DNA of 22,758 nt from positions 1 to 22,758 of the forward strand of contig JACPKR010000029.1 of the NCBI GenBank assembly GCA_016186945.1. The letters are read 5' to 3'. Made by a program: the position numbers and the translations under genes. The notes under the pieces are model-generated. The model searched no databases and was not told the origin of the DNA. It saw only the letters and a list, made by a program, of their open reading frames with translations. How positions within the stretch are numbered: position 1 is the first letter of the stretch; each line of letters starts with the position of its first letter. The DNA comes from Deltaproteobacteria bacterium. GTDB taxonomy: Bacteria; Bdellovibrionota_B; Oligoflexia; Oligoflexales; Bog-1112. Shown here piece by piece: positions 4,003 through 15,376 of the stretch.

Positions 4003-5412
4003 ATGAAGCTACTCGCAAGATTCTTCGTAGGAAGTTTGGGTATTCTGCTTAGCTGCCGAACGCTCGGCGATCAGTTCCACTACAACAATTTCCTTATCGG
4101 TGATCGCGCTATAGGAATGGGCGGTGCCTATGCAGGCGTGTCGGATGATGCGTCAGGCATCTTCTACAACCCGGGAGGCCTGGCCTACGCCTTAACCAAC
4201 GATGTGTCCGGTTCCGCTAACGCTTTCTATACGCGACGGGTGGTTTATAAGGAAGCTGTCGGTGGAGAGGACTTTACGGAACGAAGTGGGGGATCACTCC
4301 CTTCTTTCTTTGGAGGCTTGCAGAAACTTGATCATGTCGCAAGGGGCCTTGTTTTTGCCTTTGGAATTTATATTCCTGACAGCGAACAGAAAGATCAGGA
4401 TGACACGATCAAGAACATCAACCTAGGATCGCTCGGTCAATGCCCCTCAGGAGCGCAGGCGGATCGTGGGAGCCTTGTCCTTGATCGTTTCCACAGAACT
4501 GTCAACCAGAGAGCATCGACTTTTTTCATCGGAGCAGCAGCTGGGATACGTGTCATGCGTCGTCTTTCCATTGGGATAGGATTGAACTATGTGGGTGTGG
4601 ACGAGCTTGTACAGGAGTACCAGGACGTCAAGCAAAGTCAGGCTCAGTGCGGCAGTGACGGAAGCGCTATCCCCTACACTACGACACGTTCGCAGAATAT
4701 CCGCCAGCGTTTGGCTGGCTCAGGAGTTCAGCCCGTCCTCGGCCTTCAGATGCCTGTTATGGACCGCTTATCTGCTGGTGCCACTATCAAACTAGGGACA
4801 TATCTGGCTCAATCCTTCGAGCAGACCGTTGAAAATAGGAGCACGGGGCTTGACGCAGATGACCAGGCCCCTGTCGACGCAGCGGAAGGGGGAACGGTAG
4901 CCACCACTAAAACTTCGTTGATCTCCCAGTTGAACAGCGTTTCCGTCTCTGACAAACCACTGGGGACCATGCCGCTCTCCGCCCGTGCTGGCTTGGCCTT
5001 TTTTGCCTCAACTCGACTGCTCATGACCTTGGATACCATCTATAACGGAGCGGTCACGGATGCAGCGCAAATCCCCGGCGTGGGGACGGTTTACGACAAG
5101 GACGGTGTCCTGGATTTTGCCTTCGGTGCGGAATATTACATGACCCCATCCATTCCTCTGCGTTTGGGGCTGTTCACAAACAACGACGCACGTCCCAAGG
5201 TTGAGGAAAATAAAACTGGCCAACGAGACCACATTGACTATAATGGCGCGAGTGCGTTTTTAGCTTGGGTCCAGCCGAACAGCCAAATCGGTTTGGGTAT
5301 GATCTATCAGCTAGGAAAAGGCAAAGCACAAAAACTCGCAGATAGTCTGGTCATACAAGATGTCGAGGCAGAATCCACCACAATAGCCTTCTCCGCAACG
5401 CACAGTTTTTAG
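4003..5412 (+). CDS. OmpP1/FadL-family outer-membrane transporter
   Basis: A 469-residue beta-barrel protein with an N-terminal export signal. The mature start carries the family signature NNFLIGDRAIGMGGAYAGVS followed by DDASGIFYNPGGLAY. FadL proteins are 14-strand barrels that pass long-chain fatty acids or other hydrophobic compounds across the outer membrane. The last residue is phenylalanine (ATHSF), the normal outer-membrane sorting signature. The signal sequence contains LLSC, which could make it a lipoprotein, but ordinary signal-peptide cleavage is more usual in this family. A GAGGGAAC ribosome-binding site precedes the ATG. It follows the M48 protease by 11 bp. The substrate cannot be told from sequence. 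Confidence 0.88.
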   Translation: MKLLARFFVGSLGILLSCRTLGDQFHYNNFLIGDRAIGMGGAYAGVSDDASGIFYNPGGLAYALTNDVSGSANAFYTRRVVYKEAVGGEDFTERSGGSLPSFFGGLQKLDHVARGLVFAFGIYIPDSEQKDQDDTIKNINLGSLGQCPSGAQADRGSLVLDRFHRTVNQRASTFFIGAAAGIRVMRRLSIGIGLNYVGVDELVQEYQDVKQSQAQCGSDGSAIPYTTTRSQNIRQRLAGSGVQPVLGLQMPVMDRLSAGATIKLGTYLAQSFEQTVENRSTGLDADDQAPVDAAEGGTVATTKTSLISQLNSVSVSDKPLGTMPLSARAGLAFFASTRLLMTLDTIYNGAVTDAAQIPGVGTVYDKDGVLDFAFGAEYYMTPSIPLRLGLFTNNDARPKVEENKTGQRDHIDYNGASAFLAWVQPNSQIGLGMIYQLGKGKAQKLADSLVIQDVEAESTTIAFSATHSF

Positions 5413-12951: not shown

Positions 12952-15270
12952 TTAGGGAAGAGGCCACGGAACTGTGGGCAGAAGGTAATAAATCTTGCCG
13001 GCAGCATTCACTCCCCAGACGCCGAGAGTCCCGCTAGATATCTGTTTTAGGACGCCGCCAATTTTTGCCCAAGCTGTGCCTTTTGGCGTACTCGAAGTGA
13101 TTCCAATTCTGTAATAAATTTCGTTGGTAGGATTCACTCCAAAGACGCCGAGAGTCCCGCTAGATATCTGGCTTAGGGCACCGTCTATTATTCTGTAATA
13201 AATTTCGTTGGTAGGATTCACTCCAAAGACGCCGAGAGTCCCGCTAGATATCTGGCTTAGGGCACCGTCTATTCGTTCCCAAGCTGTGCCTTTTGGCGTA
13301 CTCGAAGTGATTCCAATTCTGTAATAAATTTGGTTGTAGGGATCCACTCCCCAAACGCCGAGAGCTCCGCTAGATATCTGTTTTAGCTCTGGCTGGCTAG
13401 ATACCAAGTCCCAATTTGTGCCGGTTGGAGTACCCGAACCGATTCCGGCCCTGTAGTAACTTTGATTGGGCTCCACTACTGCTCCCATTATAACAAGGGG
13501 CCTCACTCCCCAGACGCCGAGAGTCCCGCTAGATATCTGTTTTAGGCCGCCGTCTATCCATTTCCAATTTGTGCCAGTTGGATTAGCGGAACTGATTCCT
13601 TCTCTGTAATAATTCTGGCCCACTAGGGTAGTAGCCCAAACTCCAAACTCCCCACTCGATACCTGGCTCATCACTTCCGGCCCGACGTCTTTCCAAGTCC
13701 ATTTATCCGGGGACATATCGACACATGGTGAATCAGCGTCAGACTTCTCTTCTTTCGTGAAGAGACAATATTCAAACGCACCTTTCGGTAGCCTAATTGA
13801 TCCGGTTGTTAGATCCTTCACTAAATTTCTCTGAGACAAAACGTCGGCCGATTTTGTTCCGAAGTCGACACGAAGATACTTCGAACCCTGGAAAAAGAAG
13901 AATTCGTTCCCAAATTCAGTCGTATCCAATTTTTTGTTCACAGCGGCATCTATGAACTTAAAATCTCCCATGTGTGAATAGCCCGCATCGCTTGCGATGA
14001 GTTTGGCTCTGTTGTCCAAATAGGTTGCTGTCGGGTCACTAATTATGCTCAGGTTTTCGGAATTCACGGTGATGAATAGGTAGCCTTTGAAAATCTGTAG
14101 GTTCTTGTCGTGATCAAGTACTACTGCATCTAGATCCCGTTGGAATTCTGTCGGCCAACTTTCAGGCAGTATTTGCTCAGAAGCTGAAGAAAAGTCAGTT
14201 TTAAGTTTTAAGAGCTTATTTCCCTTGAAAAAATAGAAATAATGCCCATCAGCGCGTTCCACATAACTTGCTGCACTAATACCACTAGACCAATCGCCGA
14301 TCAAAAACTCTTGCCCCCCAGGCTTTTTGAAAACTTCTCGAATTGTCTTCCCCGAGGAGGTGATGTATCCCCATTTGTTAACTGAAATTACTTTATCTTT
14401 AATAAGGTAATAAATTATTGGAGAATCAGGTGCGTCGGGATGAGAAACTGCCGCATCGATCTCAGGCATGCGGTTTGGGATAACTATGGGGACACGACAA
14501 GTTGCGTTCGTTTCGTCCCACCACATTTCGTCGCCTCCATGTTCTGTAACACACAGCGTTTTTGCAGTGAGCTCACATTTCTGGTCTGTTTCGTTCCATG
14601 CAAAATTGACGGCTGTGCATTCTGTTTCTAATGGCTCACGACAACTTGAAGCGGTTGCATCCCATATATATCCGCCAGCTACACATTCACTTTGATCAAC
14701 GCATTGATTCTTGGGGTTTGGCCGTTCATCAGCCTCACAGGTAATGATTTGTACACATTTTCCTTCTGCATCAGCGATTTCCCCTTGCAGGCACGCGATT
14801 TTCCCTTCATCGGCGACACATTTTCCTTCTGCATCAGCGGTTTCCCCCTGCGGACACGTGATTTTCCCTTCATCGGCGCCACATTTTCCTTCTGCATCAG
14901 CGGTTTCCCCCTGCGGACACGTGATTTTCCCTTCATCGGCGCCACATTTTCCTTCTGCATCGGCAATTTCCCCTTGCGGGCAGACAATTTTTTCTTCATC
15001 TTCCTTCTGCATCAGCGTTTTCCCCGTGCGGGCAGACAATGGCGACACATTTTTTTCTTCATCGGCGACACATTTTCCTTCTGGATCAGCGGGTTCCCCT
15101 TGCGGGCATATAATTTCCCCTTTTTCGCCAGTCATTTTGGCAATTTCGCTGCTGCCTTTTTCGACGCTTCTAGCCATCTTAGGTTTTCTTGGGGTATCTT
15201 CCTGTTTTGAACAGCCCTCACTGAGGGTAACCAATAGAAAGGCGGCCAAGACTGTTTTCTTGATAAGCAT
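12952..15270 (-). CDS. Mosaic lipoprotein: Cys repeats, hemopexin-like and tectonin-like repeats
   Basis: 772 residues. I chose ATG 15270 (MLIKKTVLAAFLLVTLSEGC) because it gives a lipoprotein-type signal with Cys20 and a GGAGGG ribosome-binding site. The longer frame to 15486 reads through a palindromic element. Domains in order are: a lysine-rich linker; six 21-residue repeats with the pattern CPQGExADAEGKC (about residues 51-176); a cysteine-rich segment (to about 265); hemopexin-like repeats containing YFYFFKGNKLLKLK and FFFFQGSKYLRVDF (about 268-500); and six tectonin-like repeats around QISSGTLGVWGV (about 524-770). Hemopexin and tectonin folds are beta-propellers that bind proteins or glycans, so surface adhesion or host/prey recognition is likely but inferred. 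SEGC is not an ideal lipobox. Two internal duplications suggest fast evolution. No family with this whole architecture is known to me. Confidence 0.85.
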   Translation of the reverse strand: MLIKKTVLAAFLLVTLSEGCSKQEDTPRKPKMARSVEKGSSEIAKMTGEKGEIICPQGEPADPEGKCVADEEKNVSPLSARTGKTLMQKEDEEKIVCPQGEIADAEGKCGADEGKITCPQGETADAEGKCGADEGKITCPQGETADAEGKCVADEGKIACLQGEIADAEGKCVQIITCEADERPNPKNQCVDQSECVAGGYIWDATASSCREPLETECTAVNFAWNETDQKCELTAKTLCVTEHGGDEMWWDETNATCRVPIVIPNRMPEIDAAVSHPDAPDSPIIYYLIKDKVISVNKWGYITSSGKTIREVFKKPGGQEFLIGDWSSGISAASYVERADGHYFYFFKGNKLLKLKTDFSSASEQILPESWPTEFQRDLDAVVLDHDKNLQIFKGYLFITVNSENLSIISDPTATYLDNRAKLIASDAGYSHMGDFKFIDAAVNKKLDTTEFGNEFFFFQGSKYLRVDFGTKSADVLSQRNLVKDLTTGSIRLPKGAFEYCLFTKEEKSDADSPCVDMSPDKWTWKDVGPEVMSQVSSGEFGVWATTLVGQNYYREGISSANPTGTNWKWIDGGLKQISSGTLGVWGVRPLVIMGAVVEPNQSYYRAGIGSGTPTGTNWDLVSSQPELKQISSGALGVWGVDPYNQIYYRIGITSSTPKGTAWERIDGALSQISSGTLGVFGVNPTNEIYYRIIDGALSQISSGTLGVFGVNPTNEIYYRIGITSSTPKGTAWAKIGGVLKQISSGTLGVWGVNAAGKIYYLLPTVPWPLP
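13106..13273 (-). repeat. Perfect 84-bp tandem duplication within a tectonin repeat
   Basis: Bases 13106-13189 and 13190-13273 are identical. The unit is 28 codons, so the frame is kept. The protein gains a second IDGALSQISSGTLGVFGV plus the strand ending NEIYYR. The extra repeat lacks the GITSSTPKGTAW segment that separates the other repeats. Perfect identity, including synonymous sites, points to a very recent event. Confidence 0.95.
14743..15120 (-). repeat. Six tandem 63-bp units coding 21-residue Cys repeats
   Basis: Units start at 15120, 15057, 14994, 14931, 14868 and 14805 (minus strand). Five encode the consensus GKITCPQGETADAEGKCGAD. Unit 2 (15057-14995) keeps the DNA similarity but is read in another frame, giving PLSARTGKTLMQKED and losing both cysteines. 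The total length stays 63 bp, so compensating insertions and deletions restored the frame. Confidence 0.9.
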
Positions 15271-15376
15271 GGGACAGCCCTCCGAAACTCTCACGTCACC
15301 TTGTCGTTTTTTTTTTAAGAAAACTTTAGGTTTTTCTTTTTTCTTCGTGGAGGTTGGGGTCTCTCGGGCAGGGTTT

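Follow-up and report, generated by a model that had tools for sequence, protein, structure and literature searches.

The reading frame at positions 12952-15270 of the window (the whole stretch of 22,758 nucleotides analysed here, contig JACPKR010000029.1 of a Deltaproteobacteria bacterium) raises the question of what a bacterium might do with a predicted lipoprotein in which cysteine repeats are joined to hemopexin-like and tectonin modules. The preliminary description had placed one protein at these coordinates, and this was borne out: a single ORF on the minus strand encodes the protein, here P0001. The ATG at 15270 is the most plausible start, with GGAGGG upstream, and the plus strand of the gene interval is full of stops in the one frame examined. 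We suggest that P0001 combines a disulfide-type stalk, a hemopexin-like domain and a tectonin propeller on a probable lipoprotein, with the following features.

12952..15270, minus strand: whole coding sequence, 772 aa and a stop codon; GGAGGG at 15278-15283 before the ATG
15211..15270, minus strand: signal peptide with a lipobox-like SEGC end; the predicted lipidated Cys is residue 20 (read from the sequence)
14701..15117, minus strand: Cys stalk, residues 52-190, with five intact C-x11-C repeats of 21 aa, a frameshifted copy and a degenerate one (63-nt period, 93% matches)
14998..15051, minus strand: frameshifted Cys repeat copy, residues ~74-91; the other frame reads IVCPHGENADAEG (read from the sequence)
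14497..14685, minus strand: residues 196-258, three segments of the C-x(13-17)-C type that contain W[DN] motifs (read from the sequence)
13786..14472, minus strand: hemopexin-like domain, residues ~267-495, four putative blades starting IDAA, ISAA, LDAV and IDAA (Pfam, blade profile against PDB, reversed control, single blades)
13723..13767, minus strand: Cys 502/516 pair in the linker joining both propellers (read from the sequence)
12955..13707, minus strand: tectonin propeller, residues ~522-772, six motifs and the N-terminal strand WTWKDVGPEVMSQ (Pfam, PDB, motif count)
13106..13273, minus strand: exact 84-nt tandem duplication at the short fourth tectonin blade (two identical 84-nt copies)

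The short signal peptide MLIKKTVLAAFLLVTLSEGC has a basic n-region and a hydrophobic stretch and leads to Cys20, in agreement with the lipoprotein proposed earlier. The lipobox S-E-G-C is not canonical when compared with the pattern [LVI][ASTVI][GAS]C, having Ser at -3 and Glu at -2, and because these two residues are atypical the lipidation of Cys20 is only probable.

P0001 has 20 further Cys after Cys20, all in consecutive pairs with spacings of 11, 11, 11, 11, 11, 11, 13, 13, 17 and 13, for which a run of small disulfide loops would be the natural reading. Tandem Repeats Finder detected the 63-nt period of the Cys repeats. Where six 21-residue Cys repeats had been reported, five copies are intact (type CPQGEIADAEGKCVADEGKI; Cys 55/67, 97/109, 118/130, 139/151 and 160/172), one is frameshifted, and a further copy is degenerate (Cys 178/190). 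The frameshifted copy is translated in frame as SPLSARTGKTLMQKE, with the overall frame of the gene kept, and reflects a compensated frameshift or else a mistake of the assembly. Comparable Cys repeats were detected in other long ORFs of the order, for instance in genomes G020 and G025.

The tectonin identity of the C-terminal part can be taken as certain from its profile matches. Pfam detected Tectonin PF19193 with 136.2 bits against a curated cut-off of 30 (E 1.5e-39) and the Hyd_WA propeller PF06462 far above its cut-off (E 6.3e-22), and the only significant PDB match of this part was the fish-egg lectin 4ruq (3.8e-17). Six motifs were counted, starting at residues 537, 579, 632, 674, 702 and 744, which is the number of tectonin-like repeats given previously. 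The segment WTWKDVGPEVMSQ ahead of the first motif corresponds to the final strand of a blade, the arrangement of propellers in which the N-terminal strand closes the ring, and would complete the last tectonin blade. The fourth blade has 28 residues instead of 42 (14 short) because of the exact 84-nt tandem duplication; this may be very recent, or the assembly may have collapsed a repeat here.

PF00045 (Hemopexin) was detected by Pfam in two stretches above the curated cut-off (27.2 against 21.3 bits, E 3.8e-6), in line with the hemopexin-like repeats first described. Searching PDB with the region as one single sequence gave only suggestive matches (CP4 0.11, LS-24 0.71, vitronectin 1.3), and a profile was therefore built solely from the four putative blades of P0001 and searched against PDB. 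The best of its 12 matches was LS-24 (3e-7), followed by CP4 (5e-6), and PA2-type plant lectins, vitronectin, MMP-13, MMP-14 and hemopexin were matched as well, together with the unnamed protein 5lg9 and with 6ix1, named 2S albumin. The entries matched are essentially only hemopexin-fold proteins. The reversed blade profile gave no hemopexin match in PDB, only two S-layer entries with E >1; the blade borders were picked with the hemopexin signature known, which favours the result somewhat and is not removed by this control.

Only blades 2 and 4 are individually recognisable, blade 4 matching CP4 at 1.8e-5 and blade 2 matching MMP-14 at 0.0046 in PDB. Blade 3 alone gave no hemopexin match in the PDB search, and blade 1 was placed from its IDAA motif and the spacing. 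A match of the region to cytosine deaminase 2i9u (0.0067) came mainly from blade 3 and was judged to be chance. Taken together, the profile data make the hemopexin-like assignment well supported. Single-sequence structure models made without an alignment were unusable for both heads (pLDDT 35.6 for the hemopexin part and 36.9 for the tectonin part, both <40), so the two folds are assigned by homology.

The same genome encodes, at another locus, a second mosaic lipoprotein, which goes beyond the preliminary description. P0002 (854 aa; G000:C59:31984-34545, minus strand; L005:2982-5546) and P0001 are the sole tectonin proteins of this genome. P0002 begins like a lipoprotein (QLACEQ) and has Cys-rich repeats forming a stalk, twelve tectonin motifs (2 x 6, two propellers) and a C-terminal PAN/apple domain, for which PAN_1 falls just under the curated Pfam cut-off (3.4e-4) and the apple domains of coagulation factor XI match in PDB at 1.5e-6. 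Both proteins are thus built as a lipoprotein with a Cys-rich stalk and a tectonin head, while P0002 has twelve motifs and carries PAN/apple where P0001 has hemopexin; the identity of their tectonin parts is only 28%. In another genome of the order, G026, an astacin-like metallopeptidase that has a lipobox-like signal (L020:3141-4601, G026:C1) carries tectonin as its C-terminal module, which suggests that tectonin serves as an exchangeable terminal module in the order. The architecture of P0001, both module families, the Cys pairing, the six-motif count and the similarly built P0002 are, in our view, supported by the sequence evidence.

The full P0001 architecture was found in no other of the 56 phylum genomes searched, and the same was true of P0002, so that the search proposed earlier points to a lineage-specific protein; the absence of P0001 from the genus-mate G001, a genome 75% complete, is weak evidence. 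The hemopexin region was found in no other of 58 phylum genomes, with one marginal match at 0.06, and the PF00045 scan of the order's whole genomes is uninformative on absence, giving no match even in the source genome. Tectonin was above the cut-off in 3 of the 43 genomes of the order, the source genome included, and a match in G038:C27 below the cut-off was left out. PAN_4 domains have a scattered distribution in the phylum. Scans of genome contigs and of viral contigs found no named relative. A phage tail-fibre origin was also considered and is unsupported, the phage records giving no match and PHROGs nothing significant.

The modules had been presented as best known from eukaryotes, which is true, but bacterial members are already known: tectonin-type matches were detected on 24 Streptomyces plasmid records, most of them annotated as tectonin domain-containing proteins, and photopexin, a bacterial hemopexin-like protein, has been known since 2000 (as cited in PMC2266911). 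The combination of stalk, hemopexin and tectonin appears to be new and lineage-specific, while the separate modules are not.

P0001 shares with the tectonin lectins (tachylectin-1/limulus GBP, fish-egg lectin 4RUQ, Laccaria Tec2; PF19193) the six motifs, the W..I.G.L..IS.G...VWGVN...IY.R.G signature and highly significant profile and PDB matches. Those lectins are mostly soluble and tectonin-only, whereas the module of P0001 is the C-terminal head of a multi-module lipoprotein and has one short blade. The albumin-2-type single hemopexin domains (LS-24, CP4, PA2) and photopexins likewise have one hemopexin-like unit with the [IL]DAAV...YFFKG..Y blade signature; they are stand-alone, while the unit of P0001 is fused to a Cys stalk and tectonin. 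The heme carrier hemopexin differs in having two hemopexin propellers, in contrast to the one hemopexin-like unit of P0001, where the second propeller is tectonin.

We propose P0001 as a modular, outer-membrane-anchored surface lectin or adhesin with a two-propeller head, a reading for and against which we see the chances as about equal. A surface protein for recognition or adhesion is the best explanation that we infer from the domains and the anchor. The N-terminal Cys would be lipidated and the protein sorted to the outer membrane, and successive small disulfide loops would form a rod that holds the C-terminal part off the cell. The binding head would consist of the four-bladed hemopexin-like propeller and the terminal six-bladed tectonin propeller. 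The sugars bound by the latter may be repeated epitopes (LPS/O-antigen sugars, GlcNAc or O-methylated sugars) carried by another cell, by a matrix or by the surface of a host, and its repeated blades could provide avidity; the hemopexin-like propeller may have another partner, which is probably a protein. In this proposal, lipidation, exposure at the surface, disulfides in the stalk, the identity of the ligand and the biological role, whether in prey, host or biofilm contact, are inferred.

LPS and lipid A are ligands of tectonins (PMC2707011). Tec2 of Laccaria recognises O-methylated fucose or mannose and agglutinates E. coli of a particular O-antigen (PMC6272156). Bdellovibrio has a repertoire of mosaic surface proteins, the MAT proteins, whose tips resemble animal lectins and are directed at prey glycans (PMC10769870). 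These are analogous in the proposed function, as a surface repertoire whose glycan-binding heads are exchangeable and in some cases have the fold of an animal lectin; they differ from P0001 in family, being phage-fibre-like trimeric beta-prisms, and no Pfam or PHROGs match to the fibre/S74 phage-like domains that define MAT proteins was found in P0001. The atypical lipobox, the lack of an orthologue in the phylum genomes searched, a neighbourhood with no gene pointing to adhesion or predation and the shortened blade, which could weaken the tectonin propeller, count against the lectin or adhesin reading.

The binding of LPS and O-antigen-like sugars by tectonins (PMC2707011, PMC6272156) is also consistent with a self-directed envelope or matrix protein, whose tectonin head would bind the LPS, capsule or biofilm polysaccharide of its own cell; the protein would then link membrane and outer layer, or one cell with another. 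The organism makes LPS, as indicated by the KdtA and heptosyltransferase genes in the window. Such a general role should be conserved, however, and with the architecture seen in no other phylum genome searched and tectonin above the cut-off in only two others of the order's 43 genomes, we regard a self-directed role as unlikely. We consider it distinctly unlikely that P0001 is a protein-protein docking platform, in which both propellers would bind proteins (secreted proteases, host matrix, complement-like proteins) without lectin activity. Docking is favoured by the protein-binding hemopexin domains of MMPs and vitronectin. Human tectonin, too, binds a protein, M-ficolin (PMC2707011). The closest solved tectonin relative is nevertheless a lectin.

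Membership in the hemopexin family (Pfam, blade profile against PDB) might further suggest a lipoprotein scavenging heme or iron compounds with its hemopexin-like propeller, but hemopexin holds heme between two propellers and P0001 has one such propeller. Its hemopexin-like domain has only four His, no heme-uptake gene adjoins the gene, and LS-24 and CP4, plant proteins of the albumin-2 type, are its best matches. The photopexins of Photorhabdus, for which such binding has been proposed, are called putative heme-binding bacterial hemopexins in PMC2266911, and we hold the heme function to be improbable for P0001. We regard as very unlikely, and as the least probable of these readings, a degrading or non-functional gene, in which repeat slippage would have shifted the frame of one Cys repeat and shortened one blade. 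The frameshifted repeat and the exact 84-nt duplication are of the kind expected from it, and the GC3 of the gene is 0.44 compared with 0.50-0.56 in its neighbours; the 772-codon frame is nevertheless intact, the Cys pairing complete and the number of tectonin motifs the canonical six.

By extension of the surface lectin or adhesin reading, this organism could display a small repertoire of lipid-anchored, modular proteins for pattern recognition that carry tectonin, hemopexin and PAN/apple on a disulfide stalk and recognise prey or host surfaces; we put this forward tentatively and rather doubt it. These three modules are typical of animal innate immunity and the extracellular matrix. If the head binds foreign glycans, a little-known lineage near predatory and parasitic bacteria would build its surface recognition proteins from the very modules by which animals recognise bacteria, and P0001 would offer a concrete handle on partner choice by such bacteria. 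This one gene also illustrates cleanly how domains and repeats are rapidly shuffled.

The preliminary description considered the locus the best candidate for an undescribed system, a claim that the data do not support; what we detected is a single protein in an ordinary neighbourhood: L21, L27 and Obg (rplU-rpmA-obg), a cytidylyltransferase-type protein, FliK and FlgD (fliK-flgD), and KdtA. No gene near P0001 in the window points to adhesion or predation. An operon with L21/L27/Obg or fliK was rejected as functional evidence, because in genome G006 the interval from fliK to the L21 gene differs and holds an alpha/beta hydrolase instead. Elsewhere in the window, an IS605 OrfB-type (TnpB-like) transposase lies at 1686-2944 on the plus strand as two overlapping ORFs, apparently broken by a frameshift. 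The 469-aa protein encoded at 4003-5412 on the plus strand, adjoining an M48 peptidase, has a weak match to the outer-membrane PorV/PorQ proteins (2.9e-7, below the cut-off).
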